Assembly: GCA_910890315.1 (NCBI GenBank)
Contig: CAJVGD010000001.1
Span: 744,001 to 808,000, forward strand
Reading direction: 5' to 3'
Length of the DNA: 64,000 nt
Source: Serendipita indica DSM 11827
Lineage: Eukaryota > Basidiomycota > Agaricomycetes > Sebacinales > Serendipitaceae
Shown here piece by piece: positions 22,259 to 63,982 of the stretch (positions are counted from its first letter, which is position 1; each line of letters begins with the position of its first letter). Position numbers and translations under genes: made by a program. The notes beneath the pieces are model-generated. The model saw only the letters and a program-made list of their open reading frames with translations, did not search any database and was not told the DNA's origin.

Positions 22259-23987
22259 ATGGTCTGTGTGGCCCATGTCAACGACGCTCTCCTGGTCGTG
22301 CTGGTCACAACCATTTCATCTGGAACCTCATTTCCTGTCGCAGTACTATCAAACGATGCACAAATCTCTGCTCCGACTGGACGTGTGGCCCCTCTCTTGC
22401 GATCTTTGGCACCATTTAGGGTCACTCCAATAGTACAAGAGGCTCAAGAGAACATATCCGGACATTCAAGCACCGAGATGCCTGCCACACCTCTTGCCTT
22501 GGAACAGTCTGCGTTTGCAACAATTACACGACCGGATGTCATGATCTCGATTGAAGAGCCCTCGGTTACTGTGATGACTACAAATACGGAAACTGTGACC
22601 GCTCGGCCATCTCCGCCTCATGCCTCGGGCTCATTTCCCTTTTCTCCTTTTCGCTCTATTGAATGGACTTTACCCTCACAATACGGCTCACTCGATGATG
22701 CATTTGGTATCCATCACTTTGCCTATGGAAGGGAAAACCTATCCACAGAGCCCACGAGCGGAGGCACATCACTGCTGAAAGTGACATATCCTCGAGGTTC
22801 CTACTCTCCTTCGCATTATCCAAGAGGTGGTGCAGACTTTTATTCGACGCCATCATTGATAGGGTGGGATAGCGGGAGGAGGAAGAAGAGAAATGTCGAC
22901 GAGGAGATGCTCCAGCGCGCAAGGAACGTGACGTTTGAGTATAGCGTTTGGTTTCCACCCGAGTTTGACTTTGTGAAGGGCGGAAAGTTGCCTGGATTGT
23001 ACGGTGGTCACGAAAAGTAAATGCAGGCATCTGAGTCGAAACAAGATTTGACGATTTGCAGGTGTAGCGGAGGGGACGATGGATTGGGCTGCTTCAGCAC
23101 ACGATTGATGTGGAGAGGCGACGGTAAAGGTGAACTGTACCTCGTGAGTAGCTTTTTTTCCCTGAACACCATGCTCAAGGGAGTAGTACGCCAGGAAGGA
23201 TGTTCAATCACCGTCACTTTGCGCAACGCCACCCCGTTCGGCATGCAACTCCGTTTACGGACTATCCATTGGTCGAGGGAGCTTCACATTCAAGAGATCG
23301 TCATGGACACGAGTCAAGCAGACGGTTTGGTTAAATACTCCTGGCATCAATGACGGCGGGTTTGTGCTCGAAGTTGGATACGGTGAGATTCAAATGTAAT
23401 AATGAAGGTAGAAGAGCTAACAACCGCAGCAGATGATGGACCAATGCAGGTTGTTATGAGCAATGCTGAAGTCTACTACCGTAGCGCAACAGTGCCGGAT
23501 TACTCACTGTCCTCATGGGAAATCGACGACATGTACAGTGAGGACGATGATCCAGATCGACAGCTGTCATCGGAGGATGTGATATTTTCCCCGATGGGGA
23601 GTGTACCGCCGCTCATCTTTCATGGGCAAGAGCGCTTGCATGTGACGAAACCAGTTACGGTCACCGTCGATGCGATTCAAGGGATGAGCGCAGTCACACA
23701 TCCCAATCTCTCTACGGGAGTATCTACGGCCGTTGTCAGTGTGACCAGCAAGTGTGAGCTCGCCAAGCAGAAGCGAGCGGCCATTCCCAGTGCTAACGAG
23801 GGCTGATCCAACCGAAGATTCTACAATTGGTTTCAGTGGCATTTTCTTCAGGCAAGTCCTTCCTCATTGCTATGCGGTGAACTTACGACGGGACAGCACT
23901 TTCTTTGGTGGCTCGACACCGGATTGGGCATCCCCCCGAGACCAATATGCATGGTTCAAGGAATTCAGACTCGCTATCAACGCATAG
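22259..23987 (+). CDS. Secreted polysaccharide lyase, PL14-like
   Basis: Predicted extracellular lyase of the PL14 (alginate/glucuronan lyase-like) fold. The start at 22259 gives MVCVAHVNDALLVVLVTTIS, acceptable as a signal peptide, then a long low-complexity stretch. The catalytic domain reads LLKVTYPRGSYSPSHYPRGG, FEYSVWFPPEFDFVKGGKLP, GLYGG, then CSGGDDGLGCFSTRLMWRGD, YGLSIGRGSFTFKRSSW, VKQTVWLNTPGINDGGFVLE and STFFGGSTPDWASP. These are the ordered PL14 motifs, including the KGGKLPG and CFSTR-MWR signatures. An unusual acidic insertion (SSWEIDDMYSEDDDPDR) of about 80 residues sits late in the domain. The last intron (about 23851-23895) starts GCAAGT rather than GT. The stop is at 23985-23987. 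Substrate not established. Confidence 0.82.
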
Positions 23988-53770: not shown

Positions 53771-55657
53771 TTACGCCAACGCGTCCATGACGGAGTAATA
53801 GGCCTGCTTGGGTTGGTAGTTGCTGTCATACAACAACGGGGTCGTACTTGAACGCCACGAATCCTTGTCGCTGATACCCCAAACGGTGATGCCCACGCAG
53901 TTGGAGATTGCGAGACAAGCCTTGACTGCAGTCACAAAGTCATTGGCTCCGCCTCCTGCAATGTCCAGCTCTGTGAGAGCAACCTCTCCAACTCCAGTTC
54001 CAGCGAGCGCAGAGAGAGCACCCTGAAGACCACCAGCACCTCCAGCATTCAAATGGGCCTGCGAGCTGGACGAAACTTGAGTCATTCGCAGTGTAACGAT
54101 TAGTTAGAATAACTTACCCAATTCCATCGATAGGAACGCCGGCGCTGTAATTTCGTCAGGTTGGGAACACGAGTCGTCTACTAGAAACGTACGCTCTCCA
54201 CTTCTTGACGCGAGAGACCATGCCGGTTGTCTTTCCATAGTTGGCAGAATCCAGGTTGTAGTCCTGAAGTAATGGTGAGAAGGTTCCCTAGGTTCCGACC
54301 GCTCGCAGAAAGTCAGGAGCTTACATTGATATACAACTTCGCGTTGGAGTCGACTTGTCGTGCGCGGTTGTATGCGATGGAAACAAAGTCTGGTAGCTAC
54401 TTAGCATTATTCAAATAGCCGCAATGGATACTTACTTTCTCCGAGAACATTGTAGAAGACGGAGCTGCGCATGGAGCCATCTTGAGAGGACAATCAGCCA
54501 TTATTATGTGGAGTAGTAGAGTCACTTACCCTCGTTCAGGATCTCATTGCACACATCCCTAGTCGCTCGTCAGTAAGATAGCTCGCGAAGACTGAATGGT
54601 TTCGTACCAGGCGTAGATCTTTCCCTTCCATTGGCTACCTTCTTTGTCGATGTGGTTTTGAATGACGCTCGTGAGGGTATTGGGGTTATTGATAGATGCA
54701 ACCCAGTTGGGAAGCTGAAACGGAGTTAATATATGCATGATGCATGGGTCGCAAGACGTGCCTGACTGTGCCACACTGTTCGATAAATAGTCAATGAGCT
54801 TGTCTCAGACGTGAGACATGGAGCTTACCAAAGGTGTGGCCTGTAAATATGTATGTTAGTTTAAACGGTTGACATATTGAGAACCAAATGCGTATACGTA
54901 CCTCGCATCAAGGCACCCATGCTCTGTGCAAAGTTGACAACCTGGTTGGCATTGTTGAAATTGAAGTTATTCTGAGAGCTCTCGATCGCATCCCACTTCA
55001 TGGAGTTTTCGGGGGTGAACTGATTGAATTGCGCCTTTGCGATGCTGGTGAGTTGGTTGTTATTCAAATTGTAGGAGTCGATCTGAGAAAGGTTCAATAA
55101 TTGAGGGGGCCTTAGAATGATTGGTAGGACTGACGCAGGTACCACTAGGAAGAATGTCAGCATAATCTTTGTGGTTGCCTTCAGGGATGACACTCACAAG
55201 TAGAGCCTGCCCTTGGCCTTCATGCGTCCAGCAAGGCTGGTAGCGTTTGACGTGCTGCCGGTACTCGTGCTCGTCGGGTTGTTGCTAGAAGTGGGTTGCT
55301 GGGTGGATGTGGGTTGCCGCGTCGACGTAGACTGCTGGGTTGATGTTCCCTGGCCCTCACGTCACAATACACATCAGAATCGTTCCGCGGTACACACCTT
55401 TTGGCATTGGCTGTACCAGTCGTTGATATAGATACAAACCAGTCCAGAATCACAGGCTATCGCATGTTTAGCTCTCATCATACGCAGGTAAGCGCGACCT
55501 ACGCTTATCCCCGTAGCCAATTCCAGCACACTACAAGGAGCTCCGTCACACTTGGATGAAGCCTATTAGATCAAATGCGTACCTGTCCCCACTCGCTGAC
55601 AGCGCTTGCTCCGGAAATGAGGGTGGCAATGAGAGCGAATCCGACGGTGACCTTCAT
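53771..55657 (-). CDS. GH10 endo-1,4-beta-xylanase with CBM1 (array copy E)
   Basis: Second subfamily of the array: signal [20 protein letters not shown] (start 55657), CBM1 CAGIGYGDK then [19 protein letters not shown], linker [19 protein letters not shown], and barrel from [14 protein letters not shown]. The 10-nt microexon is at 55135-55144. Acid/base exon [10 protein letters not shown], nucleophile region [12 protein letters not shown], end [10 protein letters not shown] with the stop at 53771-53773. About ten GT-AG introns. Closely related to the two GH10 domains of the neighbouring fusion gene. Looks intact. Confidence 0.92.
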
Positions 55658-57107: not shown

Positions 57108-60100
57108 CTATGCCAACGCGTTCATGACGGAATAGTAGGCTTGCTTAGGTTGGTAGTTGCTGTCATACAGCAGCGGCGTCGTGTTTGAACGCCACGAATC
57201 CTTGTCGCTGATACCCCAAACGGTGATGCCCACGCAGTTGGAGATTGCGAGACAAGCCTTGACCGCAGTCACAAAGTCATTGGCTCCGCCACCTTGGATG
57301 TCGAGTTCCGTCACGGCAACCTCCCCTACACCAGTACCAGCGAGGGCGGAAAGAGCGCCTTGAAGGCCACCGGCGCCTCCAGAGTTCAAGTGAGCCTGCG
57401 TCCTGGGCCCGATTTAAGTGACTTGAAGTGGAAGAGTTGAATCCACCTACCCAATTCCGTCGATAGGAACACCAGCCCTGCAAATCTGTTAAAAGAGGGA
57501 CCATGGGTTTATCGAAGAAACATACGATCTCCACTTCTTGACGCGGGATACCATGCCCGTTGTCTTGGCATAGTTGGGGAAATCTAGGTTGTAGTCCTGA
57601 AATAGTGGTCAGCAAGCAATTCTTGGATGGGCAGCGACTGCCGGTTGCAGTCTGGCGGAAGAATACACGATAATCCACTACTTACGTTGATGTACAGCTT
57701 GGCATTGGGGTCGACCTGCCGTGCGCGGTTGTATGCGATAGAGACAAAGTCTGGGCGGTACTTAGCACAATTAAGCAACGGGAATGCGTACTCACTCTCT
57801 CCAAGGACATTGTAGAAAACAGAGCTGCGCATAGATCCGTCTCAAGGAGAGTCAACCGCTAGTCTGCAGAGATGGCGTCACTTACCCTCGTTCAAGATCT
57901 CATTGCACACATCCCTGGTCACTCGTCAGTAGTATGATCAAGAGATACACGGTTACATACCATGCGTAGATCTTTCCCTTCCACTGGCTACCTTCTTTGT
58001 CGATGTGGTTTTGGATGACACTCGTGAGCGTGTTGGGGTTGTTGATGGACGAAACCCAGTTAGGAAGCTATCAAAGATTTAATACGCATACGATGTATAG
58101 GCCGCAAGACGTGCCTGGCTGTGCCATACTAATTCATTCAATGGTGAGTGAATCTTCGTCTGATGTGGAAGTGGGAAGCGTACCAAAGGTATGACCTAAG
58201 GAGCGCATGTTAGTTAAACGCTTGTAGTATTGAGAGACAAGTGCTACGCACCACGGACATAGGCACCGATGCTCTGTGCAAAGTTCACAACCGAATTGCC
58301 ATTGTTGAAGTTGAAGTTATTCTGAGAGCTCTCGATGGCATCCCACTTCATCGAGTTCTCCGCAGTGAACTGGTTGAATTGAGCCTTGGCGATGTTGGTG
58401 AGTTGGCCGTTGTTCATGTTGTACGAATCGATCTGAGAAAGCTTTAATCCATGATCTATCTAGAGGCGCATCGATGATACTGACGCACGTGCCACTGAGA
58501 AATAGGTCAATTTGTGCCTCTCGTCGGCCACAATCAGAAATGGAGCTCACAAGTAGAGCCTGCCCTTCGCCTTCATGCGTCCAGCGAGGCTAGTGGCATT
58601 CGAAGTGACGCTGGTGCTTGTGCTTGTCGGAGTGTTGCTAGACGTGGGTTGCTGGGTAGACGTAGATTGCGGAGTGGAAGTGGGCTGCTGGGTGGTTGTA
58701 CCCTGCGCTAACGCGTCCATGACAGAGTAGTAGGCTTGCTTAGGTTGGTAGTTGCTGTTATACAACAGCGGTGTCGTGTTCGAACGCCACGAATCCTTGT
58801 CGCTGATACCCCAAACGGTGATGCCCACACAGTTGGAGATTGCGAGACAAGCCTTGACTGCAATCACAAAGTCATTGGCTCCGCCACCTTGGATGTCGAG
58901 TTCCGTCACGGCAACTTCGCCTACACCAGTACCAGCGAGGGCGGCAAGAGCGCCCTGAAGGCCACCAGCACCTCCAGAGTTCAAGTGAGCCTGAGAGCTA
59001 ATGGCGACTAAGCTATTTGTAGTTCAGAGACCGGATTACCTTACCCGATTCCGTCGATGGGAACGCCAGCGCTACAAATTTGTCAGGGGTGAGAGCTTGG
59101 GCCGCCTAGATACATACGATCTCCATTTCTTGACACGGGAAACCATACCAGTCGTCTTTGCGTAGTCGGGGAAATCCAGATTGTAGTCCTGAAATCATGT
59201 TCAGACGGTACCCCCTTTGGTGGATCGCTCGCCGAGAGTAGGCAGTAGGAGCTTACATTGATGTACAACTTGGCGTTGGGGTCGACCTGTCGTGCACGGT
59301 TGTATGCGATTGAGACAAAGTCTAAGGATTACTCAGTAAGATACGCATAATGGCGGCGCATACACACTTTCTCCGAGAACGTTGTAGAAGACAGAGCTGC
59401 GCATAGATCCATCTTGAGGAAGTCAAATACTTGCTTGCAGGGAGTGTGTCACTTACCCTCATTCAGGATTTCATTGCACACATCCCTGATTGTTGTCAAT
59501 GACATAGCCCTAAGAAAATGAATGTGTCCGTACCAGGCGTAGATCTTGCCCTTCCATTGACCACCTTCTTTGTCTATGTGGTTCTGGATCACGCTCGTGA
59601 GCGTGTTGGGATTGTTGATGGATGAAACCCAGTTGGGAAGCTATCAAAGAGTTAATACGCATACAATTTATAGGTAGCAAGACGTGCCTGGCTGTGCCAC
59701 ACTGATCGATTCGTAGTCAGACACCCGTACCAGAGGTGACTGGTGAAGCTTACCGAACGTATGGCCTAAGAAGCGCATGTTAGTTTGGACGGTATGCTAG
59801 TAAAAATCAAGTTCTACGTACCACGGACATAGGCGCCGATGCTCTGTGCAAAGTTCACAACCGAGTTGCCATTGTTGAAATTGAAGTTATTCTGAGAGCT
59901 CTCGATGGCATCCCACTTCATCGAGTTCTCCGCAGTGAACTGGTTGAACTGATCCTTGGCGATGCTGGTCAGTTGGTTATTGTTCATGTTGTATGAGTCG
60001 ATCTAAGAAGGCTTTAACCAATGATCTAGCTATATTATTGGCGACACTGACGCATGTACCGCTAATAAATGTGTTAGCTGGTGTCATTGACTACGATTAG

Positions 60101-60648
60101 AAATGGAGCTCACAAGTAGAGCCTGCCCTTTGCCCTCATACGTCCAGCAAGGCTAGTGGCGAGTGGCACAACGGTAGTACTCGTACTTGTCGAGGTGGTG
60201 GTAGATGTGGATTGTGGGGTAGACGTAGGGTCCTCTGTTGACGTAGGGTCCTCTGTTGACGTAGGGTCCTCAGTGGATGTAGGATCCTGGGTAGATGTGG
60301 TTTCCTTGGGTAGATGTAGGTTGCTGGGTGGAAGTTCCCTGGATCTCCTGTCAAAGGCGCGCTAGTTTCACTCCGCGCCACGCACCCTTTGGCATTGGCT
60401 GTACCACTCATGGAAATAGACGCAGACAAGCCCAGAGTCACAGGCTACCATGTGATGAGCTCACTTTATGCGCTCGCAAACCTGACTTACGTCTATCTCC
60501 GTAACCCAGTCCGCCGCACTATGAGACGCTCCGGTTATATCTTGAGATACGGTATTTCATACGAAGAACACACCTGGCCCCATTCACTGACGGCATTTGC
60601 ACCGGAAATGAGGGTGGCAAGGAGAGCGAATCCAACGCTGACCTTCAT
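57108..60648 (-). CDS. Double-domain xylanase CBM1-GH10-GH10 (array copies G+F fused)
   Basis: One gene with two catalytic domains. The start at 60648 gives [20 protein letters not shown], then CBM1 (ending [17 protein letters not shown]), linker with DPTSTE repeats, and GH10 domain 1 from [14 protein letters not shown] (60110) to YYSVMDALA (58708). No stop follows. The frame runs on through [18 protein letters not shown] and [18 protein letters not shown] straight into [14 protein letters not shown] of GH10 domain 2, ending YYSVMNALA with the stop at 57108-57110. Both domains keep the acid/base exon (DVCNEILNE), nucleophile region [11 protein letters not shown] and microexon (60052-60061 and 58485-58494). 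Domain 2 has no signal peptide or CBM1. The first linker exon is in frame only from a CCCAAG acceptor (exon from 60304); the ancestral acceptor would shift frame. Confidence 0.86.
60223..60294. repeat. Four 18-nt tandem repeats in the fusion-gene linker
   Basis: Units starting ACGTAGGGTCCTCTGTTG, the last two slightly diverged. On the coding strand they encode Asp-Pro-Thr-Ser-Thr-Glu, an acidic variant of the usual Gln-Pro-Thr-Ser-Thr linker. Confidence 0.9.
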
Positions 60649-62110
60649 GTTAAAGAAAGGAGGGTGTTACCAAGATGGCGAGGTTCTCTTGGGAATTGGA
60701 GCTCTCCTTATAAGCAAATCGAGTGTCCGACACGGAAATATACCGACGATACGCGTGCTGGCTGGCTCAATGGCTGACAATTGTTGACGCGGGTTGATTC
60801 TACCGATTGGGCGAGACTTTATCGCTAGCGCATGTGAAATAGCTTCGTGATGCATCGCTATTGACAGAGAAAAGTTTCCCCTGGTAGGAAATATATCATG
60901 GCGGCACCCTTCCTGACCGCTCGTAAGAATCTGTTCCAAACTGTTGTGCGCAAACGTCAACAATCAATCTTCGCAATCGAAATAAATTGGCAATTGGATG
61001 GGTTGCACATTGTGTTGGGACTCACTCACCTGACGACTGCTCATATCTCGGAAAAAGGTCTGGAACCCCTGCCAAGCTGATCATGTCTGTTCATCGCTGG
61101 GGTTAACCTGCAGAATCGGAGTGCTACAGGCATTGGGCTCTTCTTTATCTCGATCCTGCCATTGAATGATAGTCGAGGCAGGAATTCTGCGCCAAGTTGA
61201 AGAGTTTTATCTGTTCAAGAGGTGAACCTATTTCAAGGCATCGATCACGGGCTTTTGCTCCTGTGTAGCTTCTGGAAAAATCCGGGGGAAGAACGACAGT
61301 AGTTGATCCGCGCTGTGCCGCGGCAGCACCGTATGTATAGTATAGGCGTCCATTCTTGATTTGAAATCAAGTTGGAATTTACACATGCATCGGGTCCAGT
61401 TGCCCATAATACGGGCTACCTCTCGATTGACCAAGTTGAGCATAAGTGCCTCGCTTCCGAAGCTGTAAATATCCAAAAGTCGGGAATCGGTGCTCAGAGA
61501 GAGCTTTGCGTGACACAGGATTAGTCACATGCAATAGTGTCTGGGTGAAAGTTATCCAAAGGTTATTCGCCCTTGCCGCCTCCCAATCTTTGTGGTTGTG
61601 GTCGACTTTGGCCGCTCGAGCTATGTTTCAAGCTATTATCGGGTTCTCATGGATGAATGGATGATACTATTGACCCTAGACCTCGATGTGAGCGTTGATA
61701 TGGACACGAAAGGCAACAACATCCTACCAATGCATTTGCCTAGGACGTCGATCCTCGAGTCTGCTACGTATCACATGGACCCAGGGAGATAATAGTGGAC
61801 CTACTGGGTTTAAGCCTCGCTTTAAATTCTTCGGCAGAATCCTGACATGCTCTCGCCTTCTTGTTGACTCCAGATGAACCTGCGCCCGCGTATGTCGACC
61901 GATCTATGGATGCTTCAAATTATGTCGTTGGATATGAATTCGCCTCCAAAGCACTCCCCCGAGATGCAAGTACTTCACACGACTTGCAGTGTGGCGCTAT
62001 GTGCAATAAGTTTCCGTTCAGGTGCCGGCTGGGTTCTATGAAGATGGTATAATTCAAAGGCGGGCAAGAGAAGTACCTTTCCGAACAATAGTGGCATGCA
62101 GTGCCTATCT
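60649..62110. other. Spacer upstream of the fusion gene
   Basis: No intact gene. CTTATAAG at 60707-60714 (about -59), TCGGTATATT at 60737-60746 and CCTTTTTCCGAG at 61047-61058 on the minus strand. Duplicate of the spacer at 55658-57107, including the remnant open frame 61228-61476 (IMGNWTRCMCKFQLDFKSRM). Confidence 0.55.
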
Positions 62111-63982
62111 TTAGGCCAATGCATTCATGACAGCAGTAAAAGCGGCCTTGGGCTGGTAGTTGCTATCGTAAAGCAGAGGAGTCGTACTCGAGCGCCACGA
62201 ATCCTTGTCGCTGACACCCCAGACGGTGATACCAACGCAGGTAGAGACAGCCAAGCAAGCCTTCACCGCCGTGGCATAGTCATTTGCTCCTCCTCCTGCA
62301 ATATCTAGCTCGGTAATAGCGACTTCGCTAACACCGGTACCGGCGAGAGCCGCAAGAGCAGCCTGTACCCCACCAGCGCCGCCGGACGACAAATGGGCTT
62401 GCGAACTGAAAACGATCAGTCGAATAGCGCGCGTCATCACCAAGATCGTACCCAATACCATCGATTGGAACCCCTGCACTGAAATTCCGTTAGACCAAGT
62501 CAAATATTTGACCGGTATCACGTACGCTTTCCATTTCTTGACACGAGAGACCATGCCTGTCGTTTTCCCATAGCTTGCGCTGTCAAGATTATAATCCTAG
62601 TACCAATGGTCAGGAGCGAGTATACCGTGAATGATTGCACCGACGTTGATATACAGCTTGGCGTTGGGATCTACGCTTCGTGCCTGGTTGTAAGCAATTG
62701 AAACGAAGTCTAAGGGCGTGTTAGTTTGTCACCTATATAGCACCACATAGACACCGACTCTCTCCGAGGACATTGTAGAACACCGAGCTACGCATGGAGC
62801 CATCTTGATCGTCTAGAGTAAGTATTGAGAAAACAGGAGCATAATCACTGACCTTCGTTAAGAATCTCATTGCACACGTCCCTTGACAATTGTTAACCAG
62901 TGCCAAAGGAATAGGAGACGTCGTACCAAGCATATATTTTGCCCTTCCATTGGCCACCTTCCTTGGTGATGTGGTTTTGGATGACACTGGTCAATGTTGC
63001 ACTGTTGCTGATGCTAGATACCCAGCTTGGGAGCTACCGGGCGTCAGTGCTCGTCTGTCGTACCCAATGTCGCCATACCTGACTATGCCACACTAAAGTT
63101 TCTTGATGAGCGCGTAAACTTTTCCGACGGTGGAAGACGTACCAAAGGTATGACCTAGTGTTTTTTTTTCGTTATTGTCAATACCCAAAGATCGGCATGG
63201 CGGTTTGTACGTACCACGGACATAGGCCCCGATGGACTGGGCAAAATTGACCAGCGTATTGCCTCCATTGAAATTGAAGTTGTTTTGAGACGACTCGATG
63301 GTGTCCCACTTCATCGAGTTCTCTGGAGTCAACTGGTTGAATTGAGCCTTGATGATGTTGGAGTTCTGGGTATTGCTGAGAGTTCCAGAATCGGCCTATG
63401 GAGACAAGGTAAGCTCAAACAAGCATTGAGGATGAATTTCATACGCAAGTACCACTGAATAAACATGTCAGCGAGCGTCTCTAACATGGGTTCTGAATGC
63501 AGGGCTTACAAGTAGAGCCTGCCCTTCGCCTTCATGCGGGCACCGAGACCGGTTGCAGTCGACGTGCTACCACTCGTGGTGGAGCTAGCTACGGTGCTTG
63601 TCGGAGGGTTACTGGAGGTTGGGCGAGTGGTGGTCGATGACGACGACTGGCGAGTGGAGGTGGATGTCCCCTGTGACTGCGTCAACTTCGATGAAGAGAT
63701 CCGTGATAGAATTTACCTTCTGACACTGGCTGTACCAGTCGTTGATGTACACACAGACCAGGCCAGAGTCACAAGCTAAGGAGCAATAAGCGCGAGTTTA
63801 CTGCAGGTGGCGGCGCCTTACCTTTGGTTCCATAGCCGATTCCATCACACTGAGAGGATGTGTTAAAAGGGATGAGTTTGAACACATCATAGCGCATGAA
63901 GAACGTACCTGACCCCACTCGCTCACAGCGTTTGCGCTGGAAATGAGGGTAGCAATAAGGCAAATCCGACGGAGATCTTCAT
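62111..63982 (-). CDS. GH10 xylanase with CBM1, signal peptide frameshifted (array copy H)
   Basis: Xylanase with a complete-looking barrel. Linker [31 protein letters not shown], microexon 63445-63454, acid/base exon DVCNEILNE, nucleophile region [12 protein letters not shown], end [10 protein letters not shown] and stop 62111-62113. The first exon reads [19 protein letters not shown] then a stop. Comparison with copy E shows one base missing after GFAL; with it the signal would continue [16 protein letters not shown]. Either the copy is no longer secreted or translated (a young pseudogene) or the base is a sequencing error. CBM1 is split as in other copies. Only 18 bases of upstream sequence lie in the window. 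Confidence 0.8.

Follow-up and report, generated by a model that had tools for sequence, protein, structure and literature searches.

A predicted CBM1-GH10-GH10 xylanase gene of Serendipita indica, probably formed by deletion between tandem neighbours

A stretch of 64,000 nucleotides from Serendipita indica DSM 11827, hereafter the window, contains a gene on its minus strand (F, 60648-57108) in which two complete GH10 xylanase barrels are joined in frame by a linker. We give a probability of roughly 60% to the reading that F was formed by a deletion that fused two tandem xylanase genes and encodes a two-headed, non-processive endoxylanase, with secretion and function predicted. Such an architecture is uncommon, and how it arose can be read from the sequence unusually well; the individual parts are ordinary and the full protein is a prediction. 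If expressed, F would give the fungus a natural xylanase with two heads on a single cellulose anchor. Its origin would illustrate, base by base, a way for tandemly arrayed wall-degrading genes to produce a multi-catalytic enzyme, with reading frame and linker coming free.

The spliced model of F consists of 26 exons encoding 732 aa, arranged as a signal peptide, a CBM1, a GH10 barrel, a 38-residue Ser/Thr/Gln linker (Gln counted in) and a second GH10 barrel. Exon 1 (60574-60648) carries the start codon, the signal peptide and the first CBM1 residues, followed by the first half of the CBM1 in exon 2 (60491-60518) and the second half in exon 3 (60386-60444). Barrel 1, placed by the model, Pfam and motifs, occupies 58706-60154 with its introns and ends at the last codon before the junction between the two halves; barrel 2 and its introns occupy 57108-58591, closing with a TAG at 57110-57108. 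In the 732-aa model, Pfam recognised GH10 (PF00331) in two stretches, scoring 700.8 bits over the protein as a whole, and CBM1 (PF00734) just once, at residues 22-49, with 34.1 bits against a cut-off of 20.6. Residues 437-729, forming barrel 2, match positions 3-310 of the 311 in the PF00331 profile. Among PDB entries, barrel 1 is matched best by GH10 xylanases, residues 6-297 of 298 aligning with 9vk4 (6.4e-116) and a further match found to 4xuy (5.1e-115). The motif WDVCNE is present at residues 220 and 556 and TELDI at residues 330 and 666, at equal core positions in both barrels. We take the acid/base glutamate to be that of WDVxNE and the nucleophile that of TELD, and the claim of the initial annotation that both barrels retain their catalytic-glutamate exons agrees with these motifs. 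The predicted mass is 79.1 kDa before glycosylation, or 77.3 kDa without the 19 signal-peptide residues (cleavage site assumed), and falls short of the product of about 90 kDa that had been proposed.

F lies in a tandem array of GH10 genes on the minus strand, running from about 44 kb to the window end in the order G7, F, G5, G4, G3, G2 and G1 (from the window end inwards). Gene models were referenced to G5 (53771-55657), a single CBM1-GH10 neighbour with an uninterrupted, hand-built model (15 exons, 389 aa and a stop) that served as the query in a purpose-written spliced protein-to-DNA aligner. Spliced alignment placed G7, a CBM1-GH10 gene, at 62111-63982, G3 at 50331-48453, G1 at 46076-44170 and the GH10 pseudogene G2 at 47773-46899. 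Middle exons are absent from G2, with a frame shift at that gap, and its final portion holds a stop; EWQQ replaces EWGQ, and a CBM1 Cys is lost (YSQY for YSQC). The most recent duplicates in the array are G3 and G1 (94.6% identical, dS 0.12), both of which are missing intron 8, and their dN/dS of 0.205 was the highest among the 19 pairs yielding a value. Besides intron 3 of F, 97 introns were modelled and used as the intron reference set. A GC donor replaces GT in five of the 97 (59687, 58114, 54761, 49827 and 45010, minus strand), that of intron 8 being common to G5 and both barrels of F. On the promoter side, the sequence of F (60669-61060) is 75% identical to its G5 counterpart (56049-55678) over 396 aligned columns.

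The initial annotation described domain 1 as ending in VMDALA with no stop and continuing onwards, which was confirmed: barrel 1 ends at 58706 and is followed by CAG GGT ACA, which leads through the linker to another full GH10 domain. One fused exon (58551-58997, stop-to-stop open reading frame 58547-59023) holds the last exon of barrel 1, the inter-barrel linker and the first residues of barrel 2. A hidden intron at the junction was ruled out, this exon being open through the join. To the left of the join, the sequence can be aligned with the ends of both barrel 2 and G5 as far as their final sense codons (GCA and GCG), which in those two are followed by the stops TAG and TAA respectively. 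To the right, it aligns with the G5 linker exon, starting exactly at the CAG that ends G5 intron 3 (CAG/GGTACAACC against CAG/GGAACATCA). The junction codon, CAG at 58703-58705, is the place of the relatives' stop codon in the left alignment and the end of intron 3 in the right alignment. Because the CAG that ends the neighbour's intron 3 stands at the stop position of domain 1, the linker exon follows directly. Intron 3 is in phase 0 in each of the five single-barrel relatives with a full-length model (G7, G5, G4, G3 and G1) and a stop codon is in phase by definition, so the frame was kept automatically at fusion.

A route to F can be proposed from these alignments. Two CBM1-GH10 xylanase genes would have stood in tandem until a genomic deletion brought the upstream gene's stop codon up against the intron-3 3' splice site of the downstream gene. 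The stop would thereby have been replaced by the splice-site CAG, a Gln codon, with the downstream linker exon now coding directly after barrel 1. The barrel 2 stop context (GCATAGGCTACC) and the junction (GCGCAGGGTACA) have short stretches of bases near the stop in common, which suggests microhomology at the deletion; both the deletion and its microhomology are reconstructed steps, the original deleted ends being gone. By analogy with the stretch between the barrel 2 stop and the G5 linker exon (57107-55350), about 1.8 kb would have been lost. That tandem neighbours fused through loss of a stop, spacer, signal peptide and CBM1 had been put forward in the initial annotation and is well supported here, the flank alignments sharpening the join to the stop of one gene and the intron-3 3' splice site of the next.

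Similar tandem genes are a known trap in assembly, and the same structure might be read as two normal tandem genes collapsed into one. One-base length differences in F, between its CBM1 and barrel 1, and in the G7 signal peptide might signal such imperfect assembly. A collapse, however, joins homologous places and leaves a normal gene, whereas F joins non-homologous ends, the end of a gene against an intron/linker boundary, and does so precisely at codon and exon borders. No exact match of at least 15 bases across the join was found on the window's minus strand. The halves share exact repeats of up to 68 bases, the longest of them in exon 6 (59948-59881 and 58378-58311), away from the join. 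Between the two barrels, introns agree at 61-89% of positions (excluding gaps) and exons at 70-93%, where exons of 10 and 12 bases give the lowest values. Repeat collapse was rejected on the absence of shared sequence at the join, and we regard an assembly artefact as improbable. The specific case of a collapsed assembly with a missing spacer, named beforehand as one that would overturn the fusion, is weakened by the repeat search of the window, the joined ends sharing no long identity.

Still more improbable is a locus with two transcripts, in which a message for the CBM1 and barrel 1 ends early and barrel 2 starts separately. The descent of F from two genes is the one point in its favour, whereas the barrels have no stop between them and are connected through one continuous exon, with an inter-barrel sequence made up of linker only and a single CBM1 in the model.

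Among the seven barrels compared, the two of F are sisters (ultrafast bootstrap 97 with codons and 93 with protein), and G5 is the next closest. They are 96.3% identical, with 11 differing positions in a 298-residue core. A comparison across 300 codons gave 74 synonymous differences against 12 non-synonymous ones (dS 0.52, dN 0.017, dN/dS 0.033), a pattern that, on these codon counts, is no chance result. Against G5, dN/dS was 0.053 and 0.046 for the two barrels, and when changes were polarised with G5, barrel 1 had acquired 32 synonymous and 7 non-synonymous changes and barrel 2 34 and 5. As judged from these substitutions, both barrels have been under strong purifying selection for nearly the whole time since they split, although that selection may mostly predate the fusion. 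Relaxed evolution of the F signal peptide and CBM1 was also considered; the changes specific to the lineage of F (11 synonymous, 8 non-synonymous) and to that of G5 (4 and 2) were too few for a clear result.

The connection between the CBM1 and barrel 1 depends on how intron 3 is spliced. The acceptor homologous to that of the relatives lies at 60339 and gives a 47-base intron, and the product made through it meets a TGA after 76 aa. The CBM1 is out of frame by this route because linker 1, between the CBM1 and barrel 1, contains an array of 18-base units encoding DPTSTE (60217-60329, identified with TRF) with a one-base length difference. Five acceptors were tested. Those at 60287 (CAG, 99-base intron) and 60305 (AAG, 81-base intron) keep the frame, whereas those at 60348, 60339 and 60324 break it. 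The acceptor at 60287, which defines intron 3 of the spliced model (60287-60385), is the sole frame-keeping CAG acceptor among those tested. Pairing acceptor 60339 with an upstream donor at 60404 also preserves the frame but removes the end of the CBM1 (YSQC). Acceptors were scored with a matrix derived from the 97 other modelled introns, among whose used sites 60287 falls at the 36th percentile, 60339 at the 25th and 60305 at the 8th. Those introns measure 43-89 bases (median 48), all shorter than the 99 bases required in F, and an intron ending at 60287 would bypass five AGs past base 30, against a maximum of three in the others. The CBM1 needs a downstream intron 3 acceptor to be in frame, unless the one-base shift is a sequence error. 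Judged by eye, both sides of the shift in linker 1 still resemble linker in their own frames, so the shift is either recent or an error in the sequence. The signal-peptide exon of G7 (63982-63909) is one base shorter than in its relatives, with the usual ATG out of frame with the G7 CBM1. Alongside the shift in F, this suggests either that the sequence contains errors or that decay is recent. The placement of both barrels behind one CBM1, as first annotated, thus held in that there is a single CBM1 match, and had to be qualified in that the CBM1 is joined in frame only under certain splicing. This frame problem had been overlooked, and expression of the full architecture therefore stays a prediction.

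The shift also allows F to be read as genuinely fused DNA that has recently become a pseudogene, translation halting past the CBM1 and neither barrel being made. The acceptor that leads to the TGA is itself acceptable, with roughly one in four of the 97 used sites scoring as low, and its 47-base intron is near the median; the array, moreover, holds a clear pseudogene in G2 and a shifted signal-peptide exon in G7. However, frame-keeping acceptors exist, and 60287 outscores 60339 (5.45 versus 4.29). The barrel codons of both halves are also free of stops and frame shifts. Given the strong purifying selection on both barrels, any period as a dead gene is limited to a few per cent of the span since the split, and by our reasoning the few non-synonymous differences leave at most about 3%. 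We consider loss of function rather unlikely on this evidence, and a working F enzyme with its CBM1 attached likely under the downstream-acceptor model. Within the CBM1 of F (60415-60392, minus strand), FHEWYSQC stands in place of the INDWYSQC of G5, G7, G3 and G1, and one of the changed residues presumably occupies the position of a conserved Asn in CBM1.

If made, the F product would be a secreted endoxylanase in which flexible linkers carry two equivalent catalytic heads, together with a single tag that binds cellulose. A single CBM1 would hold both catalytic domains on the wall, doubling the active sites per anchor. The likely effect would be more xylan-cutting sites near one anchor, through proximity or plain dosage, and a proximity or avidity effect of the two barrels is possible on the modelled architecture. 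The initial annotation had also offered the description 'processive-like', which is not supported. GH10 is an endo-acting cleft family, the barrels are near-identical GH10 domains, and nothing seen in them suggests processivity.

Duplicated catalytic domains of one family occur in a fungal xylanase of Neocallimastix, which carries two GH11 domains. That enzyme has a GH11 fold and comes from an anaerobic fungus, whereas F is GH10; it was not found in our full-text literature searches on duplicated domains. Each half of F is an ordinary member of the fungal CBM1-GH10 endoxylanases (CAZy GH10; PF00331 and PF00734), which share with F a signal peptide, CBM1 and GH10 and include G5 and RcXYN3-RcXYN8. 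Of the nine GH10 proteins of Rhizoctonia cerealis, six have a CBM1 and measure 380-420 aa (PMC7084588). RcXYN3-RcXYN8 (380-420 aa) and G5 (389 aa) have one barrel each, whereas F has two in 732 aa (PMC7084588). The nearest precedent found is a CE15 protein of Sphaerobolus stellatus reported to have two GH10 domains, for which the authors warn of a possible gene prediction error (PMC10313548). It resembles F in its two predicted GH10 domains and differs in its CE15 domain, a comparison made by description only. Same-family catalytic pairs in one chain are likewise described for six architectures with two GH48 domains (PMC11238990) and for a protein of Teredinibacter in which PL1 occurs twice (PMC12055684); these belong to other families than F, and the PL1 case is bacterial. 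The bacterial GH10-CBM3-CBM3-GH48 enzyme of Caldicellulosiruptor bescii is also a modular GH10 enzyme with two catalytic domains, but unlike in F the second belongs to another family (PMC4994175, PMC6892212).

A fungal CBM1-GH10-GH10 enzyme was not found among the papers listed by full-text searches, which cover few subscription journals and in which authors' wording varies. On this literature basis, the rarity of double GH10 enzymes in fungi agrees with what had been claimed. A second GH10 match longer than 120 query residues was present at none of 80 bacterial loci (the best 80 of 437 matches, with flanks of up to 3 kb). In one bacterial phylum, 28 of 198 genomes had a GH10 match, and E was below 1e-40 for 26 of the 42 matches listed. 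None of these 26 strong matches, again among those listed, adjoins another, the nearest two on one contig being approximately 11 kb apart on opposite strands. A scan of viral contigs found no relative.

The fusion suggests a broader idea, which we advance tentatively as possible but doubtful. The exon layout of fungal genes of the CBM-linker-catalytic type might act as a fusion socket, in which the linker exon is immediately preceded by the YAG end of a phase-0 intron, an ending that a TAG stop resembles. Deletions between tandem copies that swap the stop for the acceptor through short homology would then yield a seamless, in-frame, linker-joined double enzyme, of which F would be a selected, two-headed CBM1-GH10-GH10 example. 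No paper on such a stop-to-acceptor fusion mechanism was found in the full-text literature.

Elsewhere in the window, other open frames carry septin, NAT10, NatB and histone deacetylase domains, and many short introns are present in its genes; together with the fungal CBM1, these features give the window a fungal look. An open frame resembling polysaccharide lyase 14 (22259-23017, plus strand, E 4.6e-18) lies approximately 21 kb from the GH10 array.
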